Positions 3,369-42,645 of a stretch of 44,059 bases of DNA are shown here, in pieces. A program made the translations under genes and the position numbers. Location: NCBI GenBank assembly GCA_027021615.1, contig JALUTY010000046.1, positions 1-44,059 on the forward strand, in the 5' to 3' direction. The stretch is from a bacterium (lineage in GTDB: Bacteria > Desulfobacterota > Deferrisomatia > Deferrisomatales > Deferrisomataceae). The notes under the pieces were generated by a model. It was not told the origin of the DNA. It worked only from the letters and a program-made list of their open reading frames with translations, and did not search any database. Each line of letters starts with the position of its first letter. The first letter of the stretch is position 1.

Positions 3369-3434
3369 GGTTCCTCCGGTTCGGGGGGTGGCCGGAGTCT
3401 GGCACACCGGACGGCTTCGCCTCAACCTCCGCCC

Positions 3435-3477
3435 GGCACCAGAAGGGCCGGCCCTCAGGGCCGGCCCTTCTGGTGCC
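3435..3477. terminator. 43-base perfect palindrome, strong terminator hairpin
   Basis: Arms 3435-3455 and 3457-3477 are perfectly complementary over 21 bases around a single central base. It lies just after the 20-residue peptide gene on the minus strand and before the Nudix gene, so it most likely ends the radical SAM operon transcript. There is no U-tract on either strand, so action may be through RNA stability or as a bidirectional stop. Confidence 0.75.
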
Positions 3478-3507
3478 TCCAGCGTCAGCAGGGATGGACG
3501 CTGGAGG
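3476..3507 (-). terminator. Second hairpin overlapping the 3' end of the peptide gene
   Basis: CCTCCAGCGTC (3476-3486) pairs perfectly with GACGCTGGAGG (3497-3507) around a ten-base loop. The stem contains the stop codon and codons 14-17 of the 20-residue peptide gene, and shares two bases with the 43-base palindrome, so the two stems are stacked end to end. It may protect the peptide mRNA or modulate its translation; that role is inference. Confidence 0.55.
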
Positions 3508-3547
3508 TTCCCGCGATGCGGGGCTTTACGTAGGGGATCTTCTTCAT
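3485..3547 (-). CDS. 20-residue precursor-like peptide coupled to radical SAM enzyme
   Basis: The reading frame encodes MKKIPYVKPRIAGTSSVHPC and stops at TGA (3485-3487). Its ATG (3545-3547) overlaps the TGA of the radical SAM/SPASM gene as ATGA, and a strong ribosome site, AAGGAGGA, lies eight bases before it, inside the end of the enzyme gene. That independent site argues the frame is really translated. The lysine-rich start with a KxPYxKPxI pattern resembles short leader regions recognised by PqqD-type carriers, and the C-terminal SSVHPC offers a cysteine plus modifiable side chains. It is best read as the substrate of the adjacent enzyme, giving a ribosomally made modified peptide or small cofactor. 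The product is unknown, and the gene is easily missed by gene finders because of its size. Confidence 0.7.
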   Translation of the reverse strand: MKKIPYVKPRIAGTSSVHPC

Positions 3548-4554
3548 GACGGTCCTCCTTGGGGCCGGCCGTTCCCGGCCCAGCAGTGGGGATCGGGGGC
3601 GTTGAACGAGCCCGTGGCCGCGAACGCCCGGGCGGTGCACCCGCCCAGACACTCGCCGTACACCCCGCAGGAGCGGCACTTGCCCTCCGGGGTCTTCTCG
3701 CGCATCTTCCGCAGCACCGGCGAGGTGCTCCACAGCACGTCCAGGGGCTGATCGATCAGGTTTCCGGCCGATACCGGGATGAACCCGCACGGCGTCACCT
3801 CGCCGTCGGGCTCCAGGTGCAGCGAGAGCTTGCCGCAGGTGCTGCCCTTCACGGCCCCAGGATCGGCCCCGCCCAGCAGGGCCAGGATCGGGTCGTCGAA
3901 CGCCAGCTCGGCCGGCGCCCGGGGCCGCCAGGCCAGGGCGTCCCCGTAGAAGGCCCGCCACTCGCCGGGCGAGAGATCGAGCTCCGTCCGGTTCTCGGCG
4001 CCCCGACCCGCGCACTTGAAGTTGTGCAGGTACACCGTGGCCGCCCCCCGCTCGGCCGCGAGCTCCACGATCCGGCGGTACGAGCCCACGTTGTTTCGGT
4101 GGATCACGGCCGACACCGTGGACGCCACCCCGGCGTCGCGCAGGTGCTCCAGGGCGGCCAGGGCCCGGTCGAAGCTGCCCGGCCGGGCCCGGAACGCGTC
4201 GTGCACCTCAGCCGTGGCCCCGTCGAGGCTCACCCCCACCGAGGCGAACCCCGCGGCCCGGGCCCGGCGGGCCGCCTCGGCGTCCAGGAGCCACCCGTTG
4301 GTGTTCATGCTGACCCGCAGGCCCCGGTCCGCCGCGGCCCGGGCCACCTCCCACAGGTGGGGGTAGCACAGCGGCTCGCCCCCCCCGAAGTTCACGAACA
4401 GCACCCGGCACCGGGCCAGCTCCTCCACCAGGCCCAGCACCCGCTCCAAGGGGAGCTCCGGCCGCGCCTGGCCGCGGGAGTAGCAGTGCCGGCACGAGAA
4501 GTTGCAGGTGTAGGAGAGGGTCCAGTTGACGGTGAGGGGTGCGGTGAGCTCCAC
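3544..4554 (-). CDS. Radical SAM/SPASM peptide-modifying enzyme
   Basis: A 336-residue radical SAM protein. The SAM-binding 4Fe-4S cluster motif CNFSCRHC gives C17, C21 and C24. A GGGEP-type segment (FGGGEPL) follows in the TIM-barrel. The C-terminus is a full SPASM domain with C240, C256, C293, C296, C302, C306 and C324, enough to bind two further Fe-S clusters; the stretches PDGEVTPCGF and PDPHCW are characteristic. SPASM enzymes typically modify peptides (PqqE, MftC, sactisynthases). The GTG at 4552-4554, two bases after the PqqD-like stop codon, is chosen; reading further upstream would overlap that gene. It is flanked by a PqqD-like carrier upstream and a 20-residue peptide gene downstream, which supports a peptide substrate. 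The layout recalls systems such as GeoRSP, but I cannot confirm subfamily membership. Confidence 0.9.
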   Translation of the reverse strand: MELTAPLTVNWTLSYTCNFSCRHCYSRGQARPELPLERVLGLVEELARCRVLFVNFGGGEPLCYPHLWEVARAAADRGLRVSMNTNGWLLDAEAARRARAAGFASVGVSLDGATAEVHDAFRARPGSFDRALAALEHLRDAGVASTVSAVIHRNNVGSYRRIVELAAERGAATVYLHNFKCAGRGAENRTELDLSPGEWRAFYGDALAWRPRAPAELAFDDPILALLGGADPGAVKGSTCGKLSLHLEPDGEVTPCGFIPVSAGNLIDQPLDVLWSTSPVLRKMREKTPEGKCRSCGVYGECLGGCTARAFAATGSFNAPDPHCWAGNGRPQGGPS

Positions 4555-4556
4555 GG

Positions 4557-4877
4557 TCAGGCGTCCTCGGCCACGAGCCAGCCCCGGCTCAGGCACTCGG
4601 CCACGAACGCCTCCACGTCCTTGCGGATCTCGTCGGCCGGGGCGTCGTACCGGCCCGCCAGCTCGGCCGCGATGGCGGCGGCGTCCCGGGTGCCGTCGGC
4701 CAGGAGCCAGATCTCCCCGGCCAGGAGGTTCAGCTGGTGCATCCGGCCGGCGTGGACCAGGATCACCCAGCCCTCGTCGGCCACGTCCTCGCTCCGCTCC
4801 AGGGCGGCGAGGATCCGCTCCCGGGCCCCGGGCTCGTCGCGCCAGGCCAGCGAAGGGTTTCGGCGGAGCACGGTCAC
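4557..4877 (-). CDS. PqqD-like peptide chaperone (RiPP recognition element)
   Basis: A 106-residue protein with the PqqD fold pattern: an N-terminal strand region (VILVHAGRMHQLN, 38-50), then the hallmark LLAGEIWLLADGTRDAAAIAAEL (51-73) and the helix V..FVAECLSRGWL near the C-terminus (88-102). PqqD-type domains bind the leader of a precursor peptide and present it to the SPASM enzyme. The first GTG (4875-4877) lies five bases after the upstream lipoprotein stop, with GGAAGAAG as ribosome site; a second GTG two codons later is equally possible. It is followed two bases later by the radical SAM gene. The match in family and position to the enzyme is what makes the small downstream frame a credible substrate. 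Confidence 0.85.
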   Translation of the reverse strand: MTVLRRNPSLAWRDEPGARERILAALERSEDVADEGWVILVHAGRMHQLNLLAGEIWLLADGTRDAAAIAAELAGRYDAPADEIRKDVEAFVAECLSRGWLVAEDA

Positions 4878-4882
4878 GGCGG

Positions 4883-5755
4883 CTACTTCTTCCTTTCCGG
4901 CGGGCCCCAGGGAACGGGCAGCCGGGGCTCCATGTTCACGCGGCCGATCCCCTCGGAGTCGGCGGCGTCGAAGATCCGGTCGGCGAGCCGCCCCTTCTCT
5001 CCGGCCTTCCACCAGTTGCTCCCGGCGTCCACATCCTCGGTCTGGGCCTCGCCGAGCTTCAGATCGTACTCCCGATCGTCGAAGTTGTTTCGCCGCAGCA
5101 CCGCGCCGGTCACGCCCTGCCGGAAGAAGATGCCGGTGAGGTTGCCCACGAACCAGTTCTCCTCGATCACCGGTGAGGCGTTGAGACACCGGATCCCGAT
5201 CCGGTTCTCCTCGAACCGGGACCGGCGGATCACCAGCCGCCCCCCTTGGAACCGCACCCCGCCGTAGTTGTTGCGAAACGTGCAGTCCTCGAGCTCCACG
5301 GGGGTGAAGTGGCTGTGCACGGCCCACGGGCCCCGCTCGAACACCACCCGCCGCAGGTGGGCCTCCTTGGCCTCTTCGAAGGAGATCATGTCCTCGAACT
5401 CGTTGTTGCGCAGGGGCACCGAGGTGATCTCGATCGGCGCCTCCGGCGTGCCCAGGGCCACCAGGCTCCCCAGAACCCGGATCCACGGCTCCGGGTCCTC
5501 GCCCGGCTTGGGCTCGGGTAGATCGAGGTACACGCGGGTGCCGGGCAGGAGGGTCAGGGTGGCGGTCTTGGTCACGATGAGGGGCCGAACCAGCCGGATC
5601 TCCCCGCGCCACACCGTGGGGGCGTAGAGGATGTGCCGGGCCTCGGTGCGGGCCCCGGCCGGAACCGAGATCGTCTTGGGCTGGGGCAGGGTCACACACG
5701 CCGCGAGCCCCACCGCCGTCGCCGCCCCCAGGAGCCACCATCGCCGCAGACCCAT
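4883..5755 (-). CDS. Beta-helix lipoprotein (NosD-like repeats)
   Basis: A 290-residue exported protein. The N-terminus MGLRRWWLLGAATAVGLAAC carries a lipobox with C20, so it should be a lipoprotein. The body has parallel beta-helix repeats: short segments ending in patterns such as RNNYGGVRF, FEENRIGIRC, FVGNLTGIFF and RNNFDD. These resemble NosD and other right-handed beta-helix proteins. The ATG at 5753-5755 has AAGGAGG at a good distance. The gene heads an operon with the PqqD-like carrier (five bases away) and the radical SAM enzyme, so it may handle, display or receive the modified product outside the cytoplasm. No catalytic residues are recognisable, and the link to the peptide is inferred from position. 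Confidence 0.75.
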   Translation of the reverse strand: MGLRRWWLLGAATAVGLAACVTLPQPKTISVPAGARTEARHILYAPTVWRGEIRLVRPLIVTKTATLTLLPGTRVYLDLPEPKPGEDPEPWIRVLGSLVALGTPEAPIEITSVPLRNNEFEDMISFEEAKEAHLRRVVFERGPWAVHSHFTPVELEDCTFRNNYGGVRFQGGRLVIRRSRFEENRIGIRCLNASPVIEENWFVGNLTGIFFRQGVTGAVLRRNNFDDREYDLKLGEAQTEDVDAGSNWWKAGEKGRLADRIFDAADSEGIGRVNMEPRLPVPWGPPERKK

Positions 5756-5906: not shown

Positions 5907-6964
5907 TCAATGGGGTCGGACCGAGGCGCCCAGGCCCAGAAGCGCCGCCAACCCGACCAGCACCGCCACCTTCCCGGCTGTCGGCACCCCGGCGGCCGAC
6001 GCGCCCAAACCCCAGACCTGCACGAGCACCGCGCCCGCGCCCATGCCCACCACCGTGGCGGCCGCGTCCAGGTCGCCCTCGCCGGCCCGCACGATCTGGC
6101 GGAACGGACACCCGCCCGCCACCACCGCGGCCCCGCCCACGAGCCCCATGCCCAGGAAGCTCCACAGCCACTCCAGGTGAGCCCCGGGCTGGTCATAATA
6201 GCCAAGCCGGAACTGGCCCGTAAACCCGTCGGCCACCCCGGCTGCCAGAAGGAGCCCTCCCAGGGCCAGGGCCGCCCCCGGGCTGCGCACGAGCAGGATG
6301 TCGCGCACCGACCCGGTGATGCAGAACCGGGAGCGCTGACAGACAGCTCCGATCGCCAACCCCACGGCCAGGCTGATCCAGACCGGGGCGTGGAGCGCCC
6401 CACCCCCGCTCCGGCTCTCCAGCAGGATCCCGGGCCGGAACAGCAGGGCCGTGAGGACCAGGGCCCCCACGACCAGGCCTGCGGGCACGAGCCACGGCAC
6501 CGGCCGGGCCCGGCCGCCGCCGTCCAGGTCGCCCCGCCGAACCAGGCGGAGCCCCCCCCCACCCCGGCCACCAGGCCCACCGCCCCGGCCACGGCGGTCA
6601 GGTCCCCGGCGGCGAGCCGCAACATCATCTTGATCGGGCAGCCGATGAACACGGCCGAGCCCACGATCATCAGGAGCCCCAGACCCAGCAGGTGGGCCCC
6701 GGCCGCCCGGGCCCGCGGCCGGAACTCCCGCGCAGCCAGGGCGGCGGCGGCGCTGCCCAGGAAGAACCCCAGAAGCTCGGGCCGCAGGTACCGCATGCGG
6801 GGGTTGGGGTGCAGCCCCAAGGCGCCCACCGCGTTCTCCAGGAAGCACGAGATGCAGATCCCCGTGTTCGGCGGGTTGCCCCAGTAGGCCAGGAGGCTGC
6901 CGAAGAGCCCCATCAGGAGCCCGGCGGCCACGATCCACCCGTGCCGGGCCACCCCCCCCCTCAC
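5907..6964 (-). pseudogene. yedE: YedE-type putative selenium transporter, frameshifted
   Basis: Two overlapping frames together encode one YedE/YeeE-family membrane protein of about 350 residues. The upstream half has GNPPNTGICISCFLENAVGALGL, RPELLGFFLGS and FIGCPIKMMLRLAAGDL, typical of YedE proteins linked to selenium uptake. The downstream half, in another frame, carries CITGSVRDILLVR and GGCPFRQIVRAGEGDL. The frames part at a run of nine C (6552-6560); adding one C restores a single reading frame. The GTG at 6962-6964 overlaps the TPR gene stop as GTGA. As given the protein is broken, through a sequencing error, a real mutation or a phase-variable tract. The family role, importing a selenium or sulfur species, is inferred from annotation of relatives rather than proven here. 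Confidence 0.8.
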
Positions 6965-7446
6965 TCGCACCCCCCCGCCAGGCGGCGCTGGAGGGCGTAG
7001 AGCGCTCGGATCTCCGGCGGGGGCCGCTCGGCCCACGGCCCCTTCCGGATCGAAGCCAGCCGCTCGGTCACGCGCTCGCCCGACCGGAACGGGCCGTTCC
7101 GGTCGGCCACGGCCGGGTTCTCGTCCACGGCCCGGCCGTAGGCCCGCACCGCCTCGGCCCACGCCCCCTGGCGGTAGGCCGCCTCACCCAGCCAGAACCA
7201 CGCCCAGGCAGGGTACGGCCCGGAGCGGGCCCTCTGTCGAAGATCCAGCACCACCCCGGCCGCGTCCCCCCCTTGGATCCGGGCCTCCACGTCCCGGTAG
7301 CTGGCCTCCACCGCGGCCGGGTCCACCCGGGCGGCACAGGGATCGGTCCGGACCCGCCGGTCCCGGCTCAGGCCCCGGGCCTCCACCCCGGCCCACACGA
7401 GCAGCAGGGCCGCGGCCACCAGAAGCCAGGTCCGCTCCCGGTCCAC
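6961..7446 (-). CDS. Membrane-anchored TPR-like protein
   Basis: A 161-residue protein with one N-terminal hydrophobic segment (about residues 6-22) acting as signal anchor. The rest is helical, with a TPR-like unit at AWAWFWLGEAAYRQGAWAEAVRAYGRAVDENP, a classic W-x2-LG-x2-Y-x3-A-x2-Y-x3-A pattern. Such proteins usually scaffold complexes in the periplasm or at the membrane. The GTG at 7444-7446 is chosen because the previous gene stops five bases upstream; GAGGAG lies somewhat far away. It overlaps the YedE-type gene by GTGA, so it sits mid-operon between a PhnD-like binding protein and the transporter. It may couple the two, but no partner can be read from the sequence. Confidence 0.65.
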   Translation of the reverse strand: MDRERTWLLVAAALLLVWAGVEARGLSRDRRVRTDPCAARVDPAAVEASYRDVEARIQGGDAAGVVLDLRQRARSGPYPAWAWFWLGEAAYRQGAWAEAVRAYGRAVDENPAVADRNGPFRSGERVTERLASIRKGPWAERPPPEIRALYALQRRLAGGCE

Positions 7447-7450
7447 CGGC

Positions 7451-8341
7451 TCAGTACTCCTCGTAGGGGGGAAGCTTGGCCCGGCGGGCCCACGCCCGGA
7501 TGCGGTCGTAGTCCGCGTCCGTCACGGGCTCGAACCCGCTCAGGCCGGCCCGGCCGAGCACTCGGAGCCGTTCCCCGGCCCACTCCACCGTGGTCCCCGG
7601 GGTGAGCCCCACCAAGGCCTCCCGCACCCGGTTCACCCACTTTGCCGGCACCCCCGGCCGGGCTCCCACGGTGCAGTAGGGGGCCAGCTCGCTCTTGGCG
7701 AGGATCACAAAGTCGTCCGGGGAAACCTTTCCCTCGGCCGTCATCTCCTCCAGGTCGATCATGGGAGCAGCCCCCGCGTCGAAGGCGCCGTACAGCACCG
7801 CGTAGATCGCCTTCTCGTGCTTCCACGACCCGTGGGGGATCGCGTAGTAACCCAGGTCGGTCTCGGGGTCGATCCCGCTCTCCAGGAGCAGGGCGTACTG
7901 GGCCAGGAACCCAAAGGGTGCCCACTGGGGGCCGAACACGAACCGCTTGCCCTTCAGGTCGGCCAGGGTCCGGATGCCCGAGCCCTTGCGGGCGATGATC
8001 GCTCCCAGGGTCCGGGCCCCGAACGCACCGCGCCGGTCCGCGGCCACCACCCGCAGGCCGTGGCGCTCGCGCAGGGTGACGTACAGGGCCGAGTTGGTAT
8101 GGGTGAAGTCCAGGTCCCCGCGGACGTAGGCCTCCTCCACGTCCACGGTGTCCAGGTACACCGGCACGAATCGGGCTCCGGTGGCCTCGGAAAGGTAGGC
8201 GGTCAGGGGGCCGAACCGGGCCTCGGTCTCGGCCCGGGAGTTGCAGATCATGTACCCGATCCGGAACGTGCGAGGCTCGCGGCACGCCCCCGTCGCCAGG
8301 GTCAGGAGGGCGAGCCCCAGGACCCCGAGCCTATGGAGCAT
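7451..8341 (-). CDS. PhnD-like phosphate/phosphonate-type solute-binding lipoprotein
   Basis: A 296-residue periplasmic binding protein of the PhnD/PhnD-like superfamily. The signal sequence ends in a lipobox with C20 (ATGAC). Mature-domain landmarks are FRIGYMICNSRAE, Y..AYVRGDLDFTHTNSALYV, ADLKGKRFVFGPQWAPFGFL and the C-terminal DADYD. Relatives bind phosphonate, phosphite or other oxyanions, or serve as sensor domains. The ATG at 8339-8341 overlaps the end of the preceding small gene by 11 bases. No ABC permease or ATPase lies in the operon; the only transporter-like gene is the YedE-type gene downstream. The ligand is therefore open; an oxyanion such as a selenium compound is a guess from context. 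Confidence 0.8.
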   Translation of the reverse strand: MLHRLGVLGLALLTLATGACREPRTFRIGYMICNSRAETEARFGPLTAYLSEATGARFVPVYLDTVDVEEAYVRGDLDFTHTNSALYVTLRERHGLRVVAADRRGAFGARTLGAIIARKGSGIRTLADLKGKRFVFGPQWAPFGFLAQYALLLESGIDPETDLGYYAIPHGSWKHEKAIYAVLYGAFDAGAAPMIDLEEMTAEGKVSPDDFVILAKSELAPYCTVGARPGVPAKWVNRVREALVGLTPGTTVEWAGERLRVLGRAGLSGFEPVTDADYDRIRAWARRAKLPPYEEY

Positions 8342-8792
8342 CGAGCACCACCTGCCGTGCCACGGCCTTGGGGGGCCGGTCCCCTGCGGACCGGAACGGG
8401 CCCGAGGTCCAGAGCGGGGGCACCTTGCCCAGGGCCCGCTCCACCAGGGTGAGCCGCAGATCCTCGAACACCTGGGGCCGTAGCCAGAACACCACCGGCC
8501 CGAACCCGGCCACCTCACCCCCGGGCCGGGTCTCCACGCCCTCGGGTGGGGCCCGGCCGGCCGGAACCACGACCACGTCGGCCCGGTCCCCGAGCAGCGC
8601 GGCCCCCGGGTCGGCCGTGTCCACGAACTCCACCCGGGTTCCCGCCCGCTCCTCCAGGTAGTACCCGAACACGTACGCCGCCAACGCCACCTCCGGCACC
8701 ACCCCCACCCGCAGCCTCGGACCGAAGCAGCCCCATGCCGAGCCTGCAGTCACCGCAGCAGCGGCGATCGCCGCCCACAGGACTCGAGTCAT
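8331..8792 (-). CDS. Small exported solute-binding-like protein
   Basis: A 153-residue protein with a signal sequence (MTRVLWAAIAAAAVTAGSAWG) and the opening of a binding-protein lobe: LRVGVVPEVALAAYVFGYYLEERAG, then DPGAALLGDRADVVVVPAGRAP. It resembles the N-terminal half of PhnD-like or TAXI-type binding proteins but is much shorter than a two-lobed protein, so it is either a diverged single-lobe protein or a remnant. The ATG (8790-8792) shares one base with the GlcD stop (TGATG); a GTG one codon earlier is also possible. It is followed by the full-length PhnD-like gene with an 11-base overlap, suggesting duplication and shrinkage. Function is unknown. Confidence 0.6.
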   Translation of the reverse strand: MTRVLWAAIAAAAVTAGSAWGCFGPRLRVGVVPEVALAAYVFGYYLEERAGTRVEFVDTADPGAALLGDRADVVVVPAGRAPPEGVETRPGGEVAGFGPVVFWLRPQVFEDLRLTLVERALGKVPPLWTSGPFRSAGDRPPKAVARQVVLDAP

Positions 8793-12945: not shown

Positions 12946-13226
12946 CTTGCCTCTTCCTCCTCTCCCCCGGATGAGCTGCAAAGCAAGACCCGAAACGTCA
13001 TTTTTTGACGGCGAAGCATTGTGTATTTATTAATCAAGCAAGTTTTGGGCCTTTGTCTCGACGCCTTTTGGGGTCGGGGCTGTCACCTTTCGTTCTCAAA
13101 AAGGGAAACGTCTTTCCCTCCCATGGGGCTCCCGACTTCCACGGTGGTGGCTCTGGCTTCACTTTCGCGGAGGCTTTGTAGTATCTTTTGCGGCTTCCCA
13201 AAGATCCCACGAGGTGCGCAACCCCC
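12946..13226. other. Divergent AT-richer gap between PEP-CTERM and YgiQ genes
   Basis: This gap is noticeably richer in A and T than the genes around it. It holds a CGTCA-TTTTT-TGACG small hairpin (12996-13012 region) in the leader of the PEP-CTERM gene and the sigma-54-type promoter listed separately. No small gene is convincing in it. Confidence 0.4.
13036..13054 (-). promoter_or_regulatory. Candidate sigma-54 promoter of the PEP-CTERM gene
   Basis: On the minus strand AGGCCC-AAAAC-TTGCTT has the invariant GG (13050-13051) and GC (13038-13039) separated by exactly ten bases, as in -24/-12 promoters. It would give a leader of about 80 bases. PEP-CTERM genes in several bacteria depend on RpoN with the PrsK/PrsR regulators, which supports this reading; no activator site was identified. 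Confidence 0.55.
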
Positions 13227-15110
13227 ATGTCCTCCCGTCTCCGCTTCCTCCCCGAGGCCCCCGACGGCCCCGACGACCGGTTCGACGTGGTGCTCGTGAC
13301 CGGCGACGCCTACGTGGACCACCCCGCCTTCGGTGCGGCCCTGGTAGGCCGGTACCTGGAGAGCCTGGGGTTCCGGGTGGGCATCCTGGCCCAGCCCGAC
13401 TGGACCCGGCCCGACGACTTCCGTCGCTTCGGCCGGCCCCGGCTGTTCTTCGGGGTGACCGCCGGAAACCTGGACTCGGCCGTGGCCCACTTCACCCCGG
13501 ACCGCAGGCGGCGCAAGCGCGACGCGTACGCCCCCGGGGGCCGGCCCGGCCGCCGGCCCGACCGCGCCACGGTGGTGTACGCCCAGCGGTGCAAGGAGGC
13601 GTTTCCCGACGTGCCCGTGGTGCTGGGAGGGATCGAGGCGAGCCTCCGGCGGCTGGCCCACTACGACTACGTGGAGGACCGGGTGCGCCGGTCGGTCCTG
13701 GTGGACGCCAAGGCCGACTTCCTGGTCTACGGCATGGGGGAGCGGGCCGTGCGCGCCCTGGCCGAGGGCCTGGCGGCCGGGCAGCCCCCGGAGGCCCTGC
13801 GGCGGGTGGCGGGCCTGGCCTACCGCACCCCGGCCCCGCCGACCGGAGAGGGGACGCTGGAGCTGCCCCCTTTCGAGGCCGCGGCCGAGAGCCCGGAGGG
13901 GTTCTTCCGCTACTTCCGGGAGCTGGACCGGGCCCTGCGGCAACCCGATCCGCCGGTGCTGGTGCAGCGCCACGGATCCCTGGCCGTGGTGGTGAACCCT
14001 CCGGCCGCTCCGCTCACCCCGGAGGAGCTGGACGGCCTGTATCAGCTGCCGTTCACCCGGGGGTATCCGCAGCGGTACGAGCGCGAGGGCGGGGTGCCGG
14101 CCCTGGAGACGGTGCGGTTCTCGGTGGTGACCCACCGGGGGTGCTACGGCGGCTGCTCGTTCTGCGCCCTGGCGGCCCACCAGGGCAAGGGCATCGTGAG
14201 CCGCCCCCCCGAGGGCGTCGTGCGGGAGGTCCGGAGGCTCACGAAGCATCCGGACTTCCGGGGCACCATCACCGACCTGGGGGGCCCCACCGCCAACATG
14301 TACGGCACCGGGTGCGCGCGGGCCGGCCCCGGGCGGTTCGCCTGCGACCGGCCCAGCTGCCTGGTGCCCGAGGTGTGCCCCCACCTGGAGACCGGGGGGC
14401 GGGCCTACCTCCAGCTCCTGCGGGGCGTGCGGCGGATCTCGGGGGTGAAGCACGTGTTCGTGGCCTCGGGCCTGCGCCACGACCTGCTCCTTCAACCCAA
14501 CCAGCGCCGGCTGTTCCGGGAGATCGTGGCCCACCACGTGGGCGGGCAGATGAAGGTGGCCCCGGAGCATGTGGCCAACCGGGTGCTCCGGCTGATGGAG
14601 AAGCCGGGCCGCCGTACCTGGAAGGAGTTCCAGGAGGCCTTCGGCCGGATCCGGCGGGACCTGGACCGGCCCGTGTACCTGATCCCGTACCTGATGACCG
14701 GCCACCCGGGGTGCGATCTGACCGACGGCCTGGACCTGGTCTGGTTCGTCCGGGACCTGGGCCGGTTCGCGGAGCAGGTGCAGGACTTCACGCCCACCCC
14801 CATGACCCGATCCACCTGCATGTACTGGACCGGCCGGGATCCGCTGAGGGGCGAGGAGGTGCCGGTGCCCCGGGGCCGGGACAAGCGGGCCCAGCGGGCC
14901 CTGGCCCAGTACCAGAGCCCCCGGAACCGGGAGTTCCTGATCCGCTATCTCGAGGAGGCCGGCCGGCCCGAGGTGCTCCGCAGGCTCTACGGCCCCGGGT
15001 ACAAGGCCCGGCCCCGATCCCGGCGGCCGGGCTTTGACTCCCGTTCCAAACGCTGTGATACTAGAGGCCGTCGGTTCCCCCGGAAACCCAGGAGCGAGGA
15101 GTCCCCATGA
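13227..15110 (+). CDS. ygiQ: YgiQ-family radical SAM protein
   Basis: A 627-residue member of the YgiQ (UPF0313) family. It has an N-terminal B12-binding-like region ([54 protein letters not shown]), then the SAM cluster motif CYGGCSFC (C306, C310, C313) in [20 protein letters not shown]. Further cysteines occur in [18 protein letters not shown]. The biochemical reaction of YgiQ is not established. The ATG at 13227 is chosen over a longer frame that starts inside the preceding gap; its ribosome site, GAGG, is only moderate. The stop overlaps the ATG of the XRE-cupin gene (ATGA). The C-terminal 30 residues are basic and arginine-rich, probably disordered. Confidence 0.92.
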
Positions 15111-30068: not shown

Positions 30069-30094
30069 TTGCAATACAACATTGTTTTGTGCAA
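30069..30094. promoter_or_regulatory. AT-rich dyad upstream of kamA
   Basis: TTGCA (30069-30073) and TGCAA (30090-30094) flank a 16-base AT-rich centre, 42 bases before the KamA start, in otherwise GC-rich DNA. It may be an operator and promoter for kamA; no -35/-10 pair is firm. Confidence 0.35.
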
Positions 30095-30135
30095 GAAATG
30101 GGGCTCTCCTCGTCTTCTCAGGAAAGGAGGTCCCC

Positions 30136-31284
30136 ATGACACCACCCCAACCCATCGAGACCATCCCCACCCCTGCCACCCGGGTGATAACCCGAATCGA
30201 CCGGGTTTCGGGCCTGTCCCTGGAGGACCGCCGGAGGATCGCTCCGGTGGCCAAGCGGTTCCGGTTCCAGGCCCCTTCCTACTACCTTTCCCGCATCCGG
30301 TGGGACGATCCGGCGGATCCGCTTCGCCGCATCGTCGTGCCCGATCCCGGAGAGGACGACACCACCGGGCGGCTCGACCCCTCCAACGAGAGGTCGAACA
30401 CGGTGCTCCCTGGCCTCCAGCACAAGTACCGGGACACCGTGGTGGTGCTGCTGACCGACCGGTGCGCCGGCCTGTGCCGGTACTGCTTCCGGAAGCGACT
30501 GTTCATGCAGGACGAGGGGGAGTGTCTGCAGGACGTGGGGGTAGCGGTGGCCTACGTGGAGCGACACCCTGAGGTCACCGACGTGCTTCTGACCGGGGGA
30601 GACCCCTTGACCCTTCCCACCGAGCGCCTCGCGGCCGCTGCCCTGGCGTTTGCGTCGATCCCCCACGTCCGGACGATCCGCCTGGGCTCGAAGACCCCTG
30701 CCTACAACCCCCTGCGGGTGCTGGAAGACCCGGCCTTGCCCGAGCTGGTGCGGGCTTTGCACGCCCGGGGCAAGGCCGTGGCGCTCATGAGCCATTTCGA
30801 TCACCCGGCCGAGCTGGGCCCAGAGGCCCGGCGATGCATCGCGGCGTTTCAGGAGGCCGGGGCCCAGGTGCTCAACCAGTGCCCCCTGATCCGGGGGGTC
30901 AACGACGACTCCTCGGTGCTGGCCGATCTGTACCGGGAGCTGGTCGGCCTGGGGATCACCCCCTACTACCTGTTCCAGATGCGCCCCGCCGTGGGAAATC
31001 GGGTGTATGCGGTGCCGATCGTGGAGGGGTGGCAGATCCTGAGCCGGGCCCGGCGCCGGCTCTCGGGCCTTGCCCGCCGGGTCCGCTACGCCATGAGCCA
31101 CGCCACCGGCAAGGTGGAGATCCTGGGGGTGGACGACCGATCGATCTACGCCCGGTACCACCGGGCGCGGGCTCCGGAGGACGAGGACCGGGTGCTGGTG
31201 CTGCCCCGGGACGACCGGGCCCTGTGGCTGGACGAGCTTTGGGAGCAGGAGGAGCCGCCCGAGGGCGATGCTGCGGCCGCGTGA
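30136..31284 (+). CDS. kamA: KamA-family radical SAM protein (lysine 2,3-aminomutase-like)
   Basis: A 382-residue radical SAM protein of the KamA family. C110, C114 and C117 in RCAGLCRYCFRKRLF bind the SAM cluster, and LLTGGDPLTL is the downstream SAM-contacting loop. Further family blocks are LGSKTPAYNPLRV, ALMSHFDHPAEL, NQCPLIRGVNDD, YYLFQMRPA and YAMSHATGKVEILG, whose lysine is the probable PLP attachment. Relatives move the amino group of lysine or modify EF-P; the substrate is not fixed here. AGGAAAGGAGGTCCCC gives an excellent ribosome site for the ATG at 30136. The acidic tail after residue 345 is variable. It is probably a separate transcription unit from the helicase gene. Confidence 0.9.
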   Translation: MTPPQPIETIPTPATRVITRIDRVSGLSLEDRRRIAPVAKRFRFQAPSYYLSRIRWDDPADPLRRIVVPDPGEDDTTGRLDPSNERSNTVLPGLQHKYRDTVVVLLTDRCAGLCRYCFRKRLFMQDEGECLQDVGVAVAYVERHPEVTDVLLTGGDPLTLPTERLAAAALAFASIPHVRTIRLGSKTPAYNPLRVLEDPALPELVRALHARGKAVALMSHFDHPAELGPEARRCIAAFQEAGAQVLNQCPLIRGVNDDSSVLADLYRELVGLGITPYYLFQMRPAVGNRVYAVPIVEGWQILSRARRRLSGLARRVRYAMSHATGKVEILGVDDRSIYARYHRARAPEDEDRVLVLPRDDRALWLDELWEQEEPPEGDAAAA

Positions 31285-32736: not shown

Positions 32737-34068
32737 ATGGAACAGATCTGGCGATCCATTCTGAGCGACCTGGAGTCCTCGCTGCCCACACAGACGTTTC
32801 AAACCTGGATCCGCCCGATCCGCCCCCTGCGTCTGGACCAGCACGAGCTCCTGGTGGAGGTGCCCAGCAAGTTCTTCGCCGACTGGCTCCAGGACCACGA
32901 GTACCTCAGCCTGATCGAGCGCTCTGCCACCGGCCATGCCGGCCGCCCCGTGCAGGTGCGCTGCGTCCCATCGAAGCAGGAGAAGGCCTATCTCCGCCCG
33001 TCCAAGAAGGAGTCACCGGCTCCACCGGGGTGGCAGGAACGGGCACGGCGGATCGGTCTGAACCCCAAGTACACGTTCGAAGCCTTCGTGGTGGGGAGCT
33101 CCAACCAGTTCGCCCACGCGGCCAGCCTGGCCGTGGCCGAAAGGTCCACGCGGACCTACAACCCCTTGTTTATCTACGGCGGTGTGGGGCTCGGAAAGAC
33201 CCACCTGCTCAACGCCATCGGTAACTTTCGGCTTGCCAACGACCCCGCTGCCAAGGTGTGCTACGTCCACAGCGAGAGCTTCGTCAACGAGATGATCCAG
33301 GCCCTCGCCCACAACCGGATGCCCGAGTTCCGGGAGAAGTACCGGAAGATGGACATCCTGTTGATGGACGACATCCAGTTCATCGCGGGCAAGGAACGCA
33401 CCCAGGAGGAGTTCTTCCACACCTTCAACACCCTCTACGAGAACCACCGCAACATTGTGGTGACGAGCGACAAGTTTCCCAAAGAGATCCCCGGCTTGGC
33501 CGACCGCCTGCGATCCCGGTTCGAATGGGGCCTGATCGCCGACATCCAGCCCCCTGACATCGAGACCAAGGTGGCCATCCTCCAGAAGAAGGCCGAGCTG
33601 GAGTCGATCTTCCTGCCCCTGGACGTGGCCCACTTCCTGGCGGCCCACTGCCCCTCGAACATCCGGGAGCTCGAGGGGTCGCTGATCACCATCATGGCCT
33701 TCGCAAGCCTCACCAAGGCCGAGATTACGGTGGATCTGGCCAAGAGCGTGCTGCGGGGCATGATTCGCGAGGGCTCCCATAAGGTCACGGTAGACCGCAT
33801 CGTCAAGGCGGTGGCCCAGCACTATCACCTGACCGCATCGGATCTCCGGGGCAAGCGCCGAACCAAGGCCGTGGCCCTGCCCCGGCAGATCGCCATGTTC
33901 CTGGCTCGGGAGCTCACCGACTGCTCGTTTCCGGAGATCGGTCAGAAGATCGGGGGGCGTGACCACTCCACCGTGATGTACGCCTGCGAGAAGATCTCAA
34001 AGGCCTTGGAGGCGGATGCGGACCTGCGAGCCGAGCTGGAGTCCATTCGCCGAAAGATCTCTGGATGA
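32737..34068 (+). CDS. dnaA: Chromosomal replication initiator DnaA
   Basis: A 443-residue DnaA. The N-terminal helicase-loading domain (1-85) has WIRPIRPLRL. The AAA+ domain begins at NPKYTFEAFVVGSSNQFAHAA, with Walker A GGVGLGKT (148-155) and Walker B LLMDDIQFIAGKE. The C-terminal DNA-binding domain has the signature RRTKAVALPRQIAMFLARELTD and GGRDHSTVMYA. Length and motifs are complete. The linker is short. The ATG at 32737 lacks a clear ribosome site, and DnaA boxes sit directly upstream, so translation and transcription are probably self-limited. dnaN, recF and gyrB follow in the standard order. Confidence 0.98.
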   Translation: MEQIWRSILSDLESSLPTQTFQTWIRPIRPLRLDQHELLVEVPSKFFADWLQDHEYLSLIERSATGHAGRPVQVRCVPSKQEKAYLRPSKKESPAPPGWQERARRIGLNPKYTFEAFVVGSSNQFAHAASLAVAERSTRTYNPLFIYGGVGLGKTHLLNAIGNFRLANDPAAKVCYVHSESFVNEMIQALAHNRMPEFREKYRKMDILLMDDIQFIAGKERTQEEFFHTFNTLYENHRNIVVTSDKFPKEIPGLADRLRSRFEWGLIADIQPPDIETKVAILQKKAELESIFLPLDVAHFLAAHCPSNIRELEGSLITIMAFASLTKAEITVDLAKSVLRGMIREGSHKVTVDRIVKAVAQHYHLTASDLRGKRRTKAVALPRQIAMFLARELTDCSFPEIGQKIGGRDHSTVMYACEKISKALEADADLRAELESIRRKISG

Positions 34069-34273
34069 CCTGGGGATCACCGGAGGAGAACCCTGGGGAT
34101 AACCTGTGGGCGAGCCGGGCCACCTCAAGACCTGTGGATAAATCCGGGTTTATCCACAAGGTCATCCACAACGGAAAGCGGCCGGCCCAGCGCCTGGTTT
34201 TCACCTTATCCACAAAATCCACAGGCCCTATGACTTACGAGTAAAGAAAAAAAACACCCCAGTAGGAGGAGCC
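34069..34273. other. Probable oriC in the dnaA-dnaN gap
   Basis: DnaA boxes at 34133-34141 (TGTGGATAA), 34150-34158 and 34206-34214 (both TTATCCACA), plus TCATCCACA (34162-34170) and one-mismatch sites near 34094 and 34215, crowd this 205-base gap. An A-rich stretch (34240-34255) next to dnaN is the candidate unwinding element. GTAGGAGGA at the end is the dnaN ribosome site. Together with the boxes before dnaA this forms a bipartite arrangement. Confidence 0.85.
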
Positions 34274-35395
34274 ATGATCGTCCACATCGACAAGGACGCT
34301 GCCGTTCCGGTCTTGGCCCAAGCGGTCTCCGTGCTGGAGCGCAAGACCACCCGGGAGATCCTGGAGCACATCCTCCTGGACGCCCGGGGAGACGCGCTCC
34401 ATGTGCGGTCTACAGACCTCAAGATCAGCCTCGTCCAGAGCCTACCCTGCGAAGTGAAAATGCAGGGAGCGGCTGCGGCTCCGGGCCGAAAGCTCTACGA
34501 GATCGTTCGAGAGCTTCCTGCGGGCACGGCCACCCTCGAACTCGAGGAGAACGGCTGGCTCCACATCACGGCCGCGAAGACCAGCTTCCGGATCCCAACG
34601 GAGCGACCCGATGAGTTTCCGGAGTTCCCGGTGTCGCCCGACGAGTTCTTTCGGTTTCCCGCATTGTCCTTCGTGACCATGCTGGACAAAACGCTTTTCT
34701 CGGCTTCCAACGACGAGACCCGACCGACCCTGTGCGGAGTCTACCTCCATGCCCAAGGGGACCCGAACACCGGCTCACACACCCTGCGCATGGTGTCCAC
34801 CGACGGACACCGGCTCGCCATCATGGAGCAGCCGACATCGGTGGACCTGCATATGTTCCAAGACGGCCTGATCCTCCCGAAAAAGGGTCTCACCAGCCTG
34901 AAGTCCTTGATCGAGGAGGCAGGGGACGAGTTCGAGATCGCCCAGTCCAACGGGAAGATCTTCTGCCGGATCCCCCACGCCCACATGTGCCTGACACCGA
35001 TCGATGGGTCGTTTCCCCGGTATCAGGACGTCATCCCAACGGAGCCAAAGAACCGCGTCACCCTGGCCAAGGACGCGTTCGCTGACGCCCTGCGAAGGGT
35101 CTCGCTGATGACCGACCCCGACACCCACAGCGTCATCCTCGACGCCGACCGGGGACGCGTGCTGCTGACCTCGATGAACACCCTGACCGGCGACAGCCGG
35201 GAGGAGATCGAGGCCACCCTCGAGGGTGAGCCGCTACGCATCGCCTTCAACGCATCGTACTTCCTGGACGCCCTGCGCCACCTCAGCGGCCCGGAGGTTC
35301 GCATCGAGATCGACCAACCCCTGGCCCCCTGCCTGATCCGATCGGATGAGGACCCCGGCTACCTCTGCGTGGTGATGCCGATCCGTATCGACTGA
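34274..35395 (+). CDS. dnaN: DNA polymerase III beta subunit (sliding clamp)
   Basis: A 373-residue beta clamp, which forms a dimeric ring on DNA and tethers polymerase III. The start MIVHIDKDAAVPVLAQAVSVLERKTT is typical, as are GVYLHAQ, LRMVSTDGHRLAI, LPKKGLTSLKSLIEE and the C-terminal CVVMPIRID, whose end forms the binding pocket for clamp partners. GTAGGAGGAGCC precedes the ATG at 34274. recF begins two bases after the stop, so both are co-transcribed from the origin region. Confidence 0.98.
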   Translation: MIVHIDKDAAVPVLAQAVSVLERKTTREILEHILLDARGDALHVRSTDLKISLVQSLPCEVKMQGAAAAPGRKLYEIVRELPAGTATLELEENGWLHITAAKTSFRIPTERPDEFPEFPVSPDEFFRFPALSFVTMLDKTLFSASNDETRPTLCGVYLHAQGDPNTGSHTLRMVSTDGHRLAIMEQPTSVDLHMFQDGLILPKKGLTSLKSLIEEAGDEFEIAQSNGKIFCRIPHAHMCLTPIDGSFPRYQDVIPTEPKNRVTLAKDAFADALRRVSLMTDPDTHSVILDADRGRVLLTSMNTLTGDSREEIEATLEGEPLRIAFNASYFLDALRHLSGPEVRIEIDQPLAPCLIRSDEDPGYLCVVMPIRID

Positions 35396-35397
35396 CG

Positions 35398-38930
<3,533 letters not shown>

Positions 38931-40662: not shown

Positions 40663-42645
40663 ATGCCTGGTCGTTGTCACTCGTCTGCCGCACCCCAAGC
40701 CGATCCGTCCCTGCGGAAGATCGTGCTGGTGGGCAACCCCAACGTGGGTAAGAGCGCGCTGTTCAACCGGATCACCGGCACCTACGTGGTGGTGTCGAAC
40801 TACCCGGGCACCACGGTGGAGGTGTCGCGGGGAAGGCTGCGCCTGGGGTCCACGGACGTGGAGGTGGAGGACACCCCGGGCATGTACAGCCTGCTGCCCA
40901 TCACCGAGGAGGAGAGGGTGGCCCGGGACATCCTCTTGGAGTCCCACGCCGACGCGGTGCTCCACGTGGTGGACGCCAAGAACCTGAAGCGCATGCTGCC
41001 CATGACCCTCCAGCTGATCGAGGCCGGCCTGCCGGTGGTCCTGGTTCTCAACATGATCGACGAGGCCGAGCGGCTGGGGGTGCGGATCGACACGGATCGG
41101 CTCGCCCGGTCCCTGGGGGTGCCGGTGGCCACCACGGCCGCCCTCACCGGACGGGGGGTGAAGGAGCTGATCGCTCGTCTCGGCGAGGCGGGAAGGGGCC
41201 GGACCCTTCCGGAGATCTACTACGGCCCGGAGGTGGAGGCCGCCCTCGCCCGGGTGGAGCCCCTGGTCCCGGCCCGGGCCGGCCTCTGCCCCCGGGCCCT
41301 GGCCCTGCTGCTCCTCCAGGGCGACGAGCGGCTGGAGGAGACCCTGGGGCTGTCGGCCGCGGACGTGGAACGGATGGCCGAGGCCCGCAGGGAGGTGGAG
41401 CGCAGGGCCGGAGCCCCGGCGAGCCTGCTGATCCCCGAGCGTCTCCACGACGAGGCGGCCCGTCTGGCGGACGAGGTGTTCCGGGCGCCGGAGGCCGGGC
41501 GGGTGACCTGGGTGGAGCGGTTGAGCAAGTGGATGATGCACCCCGTAACCGGACTGCCGATCCTGGCGGTGGTGCTCTACTACGGGCTGTACAAGTTCGT
41601 GGGGGGGTTCGGGGCGGGGACGGTGGTGGACTTCCTGGAAGGGCACGTGTTCGAGACCTATGTGAACCCCTGGGTCAACGACGCGGTGACCCGGTGGATC
41701 CCGTGGAGGTGGCTCCAGGATCTGATCGCGTTGGACTACGGGGTGATCACCCTGGGTCTGCGCTACGCGGTGGCGATCATCCTGCCGATCGTGGGCACGT
41801 TCTTCATCGCCTTCTCGATCATCGAGGACTCCGGCTACCTGCCCCGGCTGGCCATGCTGGTGGACCGGCTGTTCAAGGCCATCGGGCTGAACGGCCGGGC
41901 GGTCATCCCCATGACCCTCGGGTTCGGGTGCGACACCATGGCCACCATGGTGACCCGTACCCTGGAGACCACCCGGGAGCGGATCATCGCCACGGTCCTG
42001 CTGGCCCTGGCCATCCCTTGCAGCGCCCAGCTGGGGGTGATCCTGGGCATGATGTCGGCCGAGCCCAGGGCCATGGCGGTGTGGGCGGGGTTCGTCATAG
42101 GGGTGTTCCTCCTGATCGGATGGCTCACGGCCCGGATTCTTCCCGGGGAGCCTCCGATGTTCTACATGGAGATCCCTCCCCTTCGCCTGCCGCGGCCCGG
42201 AGCCGTGGCGGTGAAGACCCTGACCCGCATGCAGTGGTACTTTGCCGAGATCCTGCCCCTGTTCCTGCTGGCCAGCGTGCTGATCTGGCTCGGCAAGATC
42301 ACCGGCCTGTTCGACGCGGCGGTGTCCGGCCTGGGCGTGGTGATGGGGTGGATCGGGCTGCCCAAGGAGGCGGCGGTGGCGTTCCTGTTCGGGTTCTTCC
42401 GGAGGGACTACGGGGCCGCCGGTCTGTACGATCTGCAGTCCCGGGGACTGCTGACCGGAAACCAGCTGGCCGTGGCCGCGATCACCCTGACCCTGTTCGT
42501 GCCGTGCATCGCCCAGTTCCTGGTGATGCAGAAGGAGCGGGGCACCAAGACGGCGCTGGCCATCGCCGGGTTCGTGTTCACGTTCGCCTTCGGGGTGGGC
42601 GCCCTGGTGAACGTCGTCTTGACGGCCTTGGGGGTGAAGCTATGA
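40663..42645 (+). CDS. feoB: Ferrous iron transporter FeoB
   Basis: A 660-residue Fe(II) uptake protein. The N-terminal G domain has GNPNVGKSALFN (24-35), the switch motif NYPGTTVEV, DTPG and NMID. A helical GDI-like region follows, then a membrane domain with the two Gate segments (PIVGTFFIAFSIIEDSGYLPR; GFGCDTMATMVTRTLETTRER) and SCAQLGV-type cysteine (AIPCSAQLGVILGMM), with a matching second half. GAGGAGGAGCC gives the ribosome site. The stop overlaps the following zinc-ribbon gene (ATGA). No separate FeoA gene is present; the FeoA domain is fused to the regulator two genes downstream. Confidence 0.97.
   Translation: MPGRCHSSAAPQADPSLRKIVLVGNPNVGKSALFNRITGTYVVVSNYPGTTVEVSRGRLRLGSTDVEVEDTPGMYSLLPITEEERVARDILLESHADAVLHVVDAKNLKRMLPMTLQLIEAGLPVVLVLNMIDEAERLGVRIDTDRLARSLGVPVATTAALTGRGVKELIARLGEAGRGRTLPEIYYGPEVEAALARVEPLVPARAGLCPRALALLLLQGDERLEETLGLSAADVERMAEARREVERRAGAPASLLIPERLHDEAARLADEVFRAPEAGRVTWVERLSKWMMHPVTGLPILAVVLYYGLYKFVGGFGAGTVVDFLEGHVFETYVNPWVNDAVTRWIPWRWLQDLIALDYGVITLGLRYAVAIILPIVGTFFIAFSIIEDSGYLPRLAMLVDRLFKAIGLNGRAVIPMTLGFGCDTMATMVTRTLETTRERIIATVLLALAIPCSAQLGVILGMMSAEPRAMAVWAGFVIGVFLLIGWLTARILPGEPPMFYMEIPPLRLPRPGAVAVKTLTRMQWYFAEILPLFLLASVLIWLGKITGLFDAAVSGLGVVMGWIGLPKEAAVAFLFGFFRRDYGAAGLYDLQSRGLLTGNQLAVAAITLTLFVPCIAQFLVMQKERGTKTALAIAGFVFTFAFGVGALVNVVLTALGVKL

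Follow-up and report, generated by a model that had tools for sequence, protein, structure and literature searches.

A dispersed family of short VHPC-ending peptides co-inherited with GeoRSP-type radical SAM/SPASM enzymes

What does a frame of only 20 codons encode at the end of an operon for a PqqD-like protein and a radical SAM/SPASM enzyme, and is its product the substrate of that enzyme? The frame lies in the window, the whole stretch of 44,059 nucleotides analysed here, whose minus strand carries between positions 8518 and 3485 a row of genes in the order PhnD, TPR, YedE, β-helix, PqqD, enzyme and peptide. It occupies positions 3485–3547 on the minus strand (read from 3547 to 3485, stop included) and specifies MKKIPYVKPRIAGTSSVHPC, a candidate GeoRSP precursor peptide of 20 residues that has no match in NCBIfam or Pfam.

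Layout of the locus and family of the enzyme

The Shine-Dalgarno sequence of the peptide gene, AAGGAGG (3554–3560, minus strand), is embedded in the 3′ end of the enzyme gene six bases before the ATG, and this ATG (3547–3545) overlaps the enzyme's stop TGA (3546–3544) as ATGA. The enzyme itself, a GeoRSP-type radical SAM/SPASM protein of 336 residues with invariant cluster cysteines (3544–4554, minus strand), starts with GTG at 4554, two bases past the TGA (4559–4557) of a gene for a PqqD-family (RRE) peptide chaperone, which also begins with GTG (4557–4877, minus strand; PF05402, 7e-17). The original prediction of a 20-residue frame with a strong ribosome site, an ATGA overlap and a PqqD-like gene two bases upstream of the enzyme is confirmed to the base, whereas its span of 3485–4877 needs amending: 3485 is the last base of the peptide stop rather than a start, and the operon extends upstream well beyond 4877. 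There, all on the minus strand, lie genes for a NosD-like right-handed β-helix lipoprotein that is a conserved island member (4883–5755; PF13229 and PF05048), a YedE-like sulfur/selenium transporter (5907–6938; TIGR04112, 173 bits), a small TPR protein (6961–7446; PF07719) and a PhnD-like substrate-binding protein (7451–8518; PF12974, 9e-50), the true start of which is probably internal. The YedE-like gene is split over two frames at 6474–6596, and the copies compared, one of them from the same genus, are single-frame; the split would reflect either a recent mutation or an error of the draft assembly. Directly past the peptide stop, a perfect 20-bp GC-rich hairpin without a T-run (3434–3477, minus strand; fold −52.4 kcal/mol, z −7.3) probably marks the end of the transcription unit; sigma-70 and terminator scans gave nothing, and no T-tailed terminator was found at the window locus.

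The enzyme matches the GeoRSP radical SAM/SPASM model TIGR04303 over its full length (residues 4–326 on model positions 1–325 of 325) with 391.6 bits, just under the curated cut-off of 400. The next-best models are mycofactocin MftC (207 bits, under the TIGR03962 cut-off of 265), heme synthase AhbD (190 bits) and NirJ2 (165 bits), so that MftC and AhbD are its nearest characterised relatives by profile score; PqqE and sactipeptide-enzyme models reach 110–125 bits (PqqE 116, against an equivalog cut-off of 381), and PqqE and SkfB are among its resemblances in solved structures. Its CX3CX2C motif and seven SPASM cysteines are invariant across 51 homologues. For the PqqD-like protein, TIGR04302 is the top PqqD model with 68.4 bits, under the cut-off of 100, and a homologue at locus L138 scores 94.7 bits. 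Several sister-family and Geobacter enzymes surpass the TIGR04303 cut-off, as do Nitrospirota enzymes, and genomes with such above-cut-off Geobacter or Nitrospirota enzymes carry the same peptide family as the window. The second SPASM protein of GeoRSP, TIGR04304, was not found in the window's genome, where its top match is the enzyme's own SPASM domain. The window system is best called GeoRSP-like, because its enzyme and chaperone are full-length homologues within the same set of island genes, its gene order agrees and the peptide is shared, yet both proteins fall under the curated cut-offs and the third component is missing. The suggestion that the frame is an unannotated peptide of a GeoRSP-like family is thereby borne out by the TIGR04303 and TIGR04302 matches together with co-occurrence in two phyla (see below). 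Neither the model titles nor the open-access papers searched name a substrate of GeoRSP, and a search of the open-access literature found nothing on GeoRSP or on VHPC-type peptides.

Comparison of 37 islands shows that the PqqD and enzyme genes always occur together, accompanied by the PhnD-like binding protein and the YedE-like transporter in 31 islands each, by the NosD-like β-helix gene and the TIGR04304 protein in 25 each, and by an ArsP-type permease (18/37), ResB (15/37) or a cysteine desulfurase (4/37). The system is hence not the minimal one originally envisaged, as the enzyme belongs to this larger conserved island and the peptide to a dispersed multicopy family.

A dispersed peptide family inherited with the enzyme

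The original prediction proposed a search for similar frames at homologous SPASM loci. At 14 of 51 such loci, the same frame follows the enzyme gene at a distance of 0–170 nt, with the VHPC end conserved. Within the window's phylum, 11 of the 26 first enzyme loci have a similar short frame at most about 230 nt downstream of the enzyme, often between the enzyme and the second SPASM gene, as exemplified by MKKYMKPKVVGSSSVHPC and MKTRYVKPRVTGQSSVHPC; at most Geobacter and all examined Nitrospirota loci, the peptide is not immediately downstream. A profile built from eight peptides of enzyme-adjacent frames (A1) was used to search for copies elsewhere and revealed unlinked ones, of which a single genome may have six or more, even where the enzyme locus lacks the peptide. 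The frame recurs away from the enzyme in nearly all genomes that have the enzyme, and in the window's own genome a second copy lies on contig 83. Scanning named genomes with a DNA pattern yielded at least 116 stretches, which come from Desulfuromonadales, Geobacter, Pelotalea, Deferrisomatales and many Nitrospirota. In total, the family comprises at least 173 non-redundant copies in two phyla and at least 121 distinct full-length peptides.

The peptides are 17–20 residues long, with Y/F at −15, P at −12, V/I at −10 and G/A at −8. Essentially all listed copies place V-H-P-C before the stop (one has LHPC), and among the matches listed the pattern [YF]xxPx[VI] fits 121 of 121 distinct full peptides and no peptide has a residue after the Cys. 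Since 113 of the 121 distinct peptides listed contain neither Asp nor Glu, their C-terminal carboxylate is the sole carboxylate. Because the motif seeded the searches, VHPC is in part invariant by construction. The scan constrained certain first and second codon positions and restricted a few third positions to the C/T class, leaving four-fold third positions, flanks and ribosome sites free. A Shine-Dalgarno 4-mer (GGAG, GAGG or AGGA) precedes 158 of 161 listed copies, against 10% at random positions; across 136 dereplicated copies, the final 12 bases carry on average 1.66 bits of information each, as against 0.02–0.06 per base past the stop and about zero upstream of the ribosome site; and any of the four bases is found in third place in codons for Val, Gly and Pro, with a pN/pS of 0.31 (pS saturated). 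In a GC-rich genome, the location of the frame inside a longer open stretch might suggest a chance open frame, but it recurs in at least 173 copies that are conserved as coding sequence and have ribosome sites, which refutes this reading and leaves it a vanishing probability. Absence of the frame from homologous loci, or its decay as in non-coding DNA, had been named as evidence that would count against it; instead the frame recurs and its third positions vary freely under constraint on the protein. The 20-residue frame is a real, conserved coding gene.

Several variants were noted. A Nitrospirota subfamily ends in VCVHPC, with two cysteines, and alternates with secreted proteins of about 280 residues (L104, L156, L175, L180 and L185). 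The LHPC-ending copy (L036/L068, 2113–2169) and a truncated one that keeps only the C-terminal half (L066, 8674–8709) are possibly decaying. The YedE, PhnD and desulfurase genes could point to selenium, and a selenocysteine form was therefore sought and rejected: TGA replaces the last Cys codon in none of the 35 genomes searched.

The peptide is co-inherited with the enzyme in two phyla. Of 395 genomes sampled from the window's phylum, 26 have the enzyme and 28 the peptide (both in 25, enzyme only in 1, peptide only in 3, neither in 366); among 198 Nitrospirota genomes, the figures are 11 and 14 (both in 11, enzyme only in none, peptide only in 3, neither in 184). Fisher tests give 3e-35 and 1e-15, respectively, values that genome relatedness renders optimistic; the repetition in an independent second phylum is persuasive. 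Conversely, among the matches listed, 28 of 32 genomes picked by the peptide pattern alone possess the enzyme. One genome (G176) has the enzyme with no peptide found, and six draft genomes (G200, G247, G362, G399, G404 and G486) have the peptide with no GeoRSP enzyme. Simple assembly gaps were rejected as the explanation of the peptide-only genomes, given that G247 and G362 keep a related PqqD gene with no enzyme beside it. A Phycisphaerae occurrence (L165) was likewise not accepted as genuine; the peptide comes from a 3.9-kb contig in a draft bin that lacks the enzyme, and is probably contamination.

The peptide as candidate substrate

The co-inheritance makes the peptide almost certainly the functional partner of the GeoRSP enzyme as judged from genomes, and the family very probably represents the GeoRSP substrates. 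The original claim that the 20-mer is the substrate is therefore upheld as to a conserved gene with an enzyme partner, and the substrate role itself, to which co-occurrence points, is the most likely one. We propose that the PqqD-like protein would bind the N-terminal half of the peptide through Y-x-[KR]-P-x-[VI], that the radical SAM/SPASM enzyme would then modify the invariant C-terminal V-H-P-C, and that, as gene order suggests, one enzyme would serve many peptide genes encoded in trans. In the window peptide, the putative RRE-binding half is MKKIPYVKPRI (Y-x-x-P-x-I) and the conserved C-terminal half is GTSSVHPC. The former comes close to [Y/W]xxPx[L/V/I/F/A], the motif bound by discrete RREs of lasso-peptide systems (PMC13381572). 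Two of the features that characterise a RiPP system are found here, namely a genetically encoded precursor peptide and a PqqD recognition element with a matching putative leader motif, and so is a co-inherited short VHPC peptide, which we put forward as a criterion for GeoRSP.

The proposed mechanism is like that of PqqA/PqqD/PqqE or MftA/MftB/MftC, and the system is neither. Mycofactocin shares a short precursor with essential C-terminal residues, a PqqD-like chaperone and a homologous SPASM enzyme, but it has one precursor gene of about 30 residues ending in Val-Tyr, along with a peptidase and tailoring enzymes, whereas the window system has many dispersed 17–20-mers ending in VHPC; moreover, the window's genome encodes a separate true mycofactocin maturase MftC, and the system is therefore not mycofactocin. 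PQQ biosynthesis also combines a PqqD-type chaperone and a SPASM enzyme with a precursor of about 20 residues, yet PqqA is crosslinked between Glu and Tyr, while the window peptide has no acidic residue and carries its Tyr in the putative leader. Lasso-peptide leaders and their discrete RREs share the Y-x-x-P-x-[VI] recognition motif, but the window system lacks a lasso cyclase and a leader peptidase and its enzyme is different. In radical SAM triceptides (HaaB, YhhB), the His precedes its partner residue by two positions, as in H-P-C; however, their enzyme clade differs from the window's, and Cys is not established as a partner residue. What is new is a dispersed, multicopy family of candidate precursors beside giant cytochromes, which would be served in trans.

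Two explanations of the frames dispense with a substrate. The peptides might act within the GeoRSP system as an activator, carrier or inhibitor of the enzyme, the target being another molecule or the exported proteins; their shortness and uniformity would suit such a role, and the second SPASM protein, the YedE-like transporter and the cysteine desulfurase of the island suggest a more complex pathway. This leaves the RRE-binding signature and the invariant C-terminal block without account, and the PqqD-type proteins of characterised SPASM systems (PQQ, mycofactocin) present a precursor peptide, all of which renders it improbable. Still less credible are unmodified cis-acting leader peptides that regulate adjacent surface-protein genes by ribosome arrest or attenuation. 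The frames are indeed very short, occur one per operon near exported proteins and end strictly at the stop, but the partner gene lies upstream of many copies and downstream of others (VCBS/ASPIC is upstream in L083 and downstream in L084), which argues against an action in cis; no conserved RNA or flanking sequence is present, the Rfam scan gave no match, and neither the link to the enzyme in two phyla nor the enzyme–peptide operons are accounted for.

If the peptides are substrates, as we favour, the chemistry would be oxidative and act at the C-terminal Cys, as a decarboxylation like that of MftC and AhbD, a crosslink of Cys20 with His18 or Val17, or both. Oxidative decarboxylation serves as a first guess, albeit a doubtful one, because the sole carboxylate is C-terminal, nothing follows the Cys and MftC and AhbD, both oxidative decarboxylases (PMC7491314, PMC10452713), are the nearest relatives. 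A crosslink without decarboxylation, either a Cys20 thioether of the sactipeptide or ranthipeptide type or a His18–Cys20 C–C bond, is a variant of the substrate reading and compatible with it, and we hold it at somewhat short of an even chance; broadly, the two chemistries are about equally possible. Thioethers on Cys are a common SPASM product, and the structural resemblance to PqqE and SkfB speaks for the crosslink. So does the His-Pro-Cys spacing, which matches known C2(His)–Cβ(i+2) crosslinks, triceptide enzymes being makers of His-containing three-residue cyclophanes (PMC11002830). On the other side, the MftC and AhbD profiles score higher (about 200 bits) than those of PqqE and sactipeptide enzymes (110–125 bits), and the lack of any residue after the Cys among the listed peptides favours a role for the free C-terminus.

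Neighbours of the dispersed copies and a possible role

Most copies lie away from the enzyme. Their usual place is directly after a giant exported protein, often a multiheme cytochrome, or next to a secreted carboxypeptidase-regulatory-like protein, and many trail a large exported protein on the same strand with a median gap of 64 nt. At the listed loci, lengths of 700 codons or more are reached by 46 of the 94 ORFs adjacent on the upstream side, against 34 of 482 other ORFs, and 36 of the 94 contain at least five CxxCH heme motifs (up to 34), against 16 of the 482; on the downstream side, 55 of 72 ORFs have a signal-like start, compared with 183 of 482 others. These contrasts are optimistic, as the ORF caller was crude and the genomes are related. 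Pfam assigns cytochrome c3/c7 and paired-CxxCH domains to about a third of the upstream neighbours and carboxypeptidase-regulatory-like domains to 16 of the 77 on that side and to 21 of the 58 downstream; FG-GAP/UnbV, Big_1, fn3 and NosD domains also occur. The peptide lacks a signal sequence, and neither a peptidase nor an exporter dedicated to it was recognised.

From this placement we tentatively suggest that the peptide, once modified, would help to make, metallate or anchor the adjacent exported giant or multiheme surface proteins, which is the weak step of the proposal. With similar reserve, one may picture a single radical SAM/PqqD machine serving a fleet of peptides, each dedicated to its adjacent giant extracellular protein, in many cases a multiheme cytochrome with more than 10 heme sites. 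In modified form, such a peptide would then represent a novel type of cofactor or assembly factor, encoded separately from the surface electron-transfer proteins that it serves in Geobacter, Deferrisomatales and Nitrospirota, and the family would give fresh access to the question of how extracellular electron-transfer proteins are produced. The placement points to the giant exported and multiheme proteins of metal-reducing bacteria, away from antibiotics. GeoRSP proteins had been catalogued before and a described substrate was not found; the set of 17–20-residue peptides makes the enzyme testable by co-expression. More generally, precursor genes below the annotation size of pipelines can be dispersed family-wide, outside a biosynthetic cluster.

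The second peptide copy of the window's genome, on contig 83, sits beside a giant Big_1/invasin-type exported protein (L067, 4171–7362) whose C-terminus is a biotinyl/lipoyl-like domain (E 9e-9), a domain that recurs in related partners. As an attachment site in the Deferrisomatota partners it was rejected, no attachment lysine being conserved. Elsewhere in the window, dnaA, dnaN and a RecF-like gene lie in a row (32737–36492), and the window probably contains the chromosomal replication-origin region. It also encodes a second radical SAM protein, YgiQ-like (Radical_SAM_N and DUF3362; 13188–15110), a third, weak radical SAM frame (30082–31284) and a FeoB ferrous iron transporter (40663–42645).
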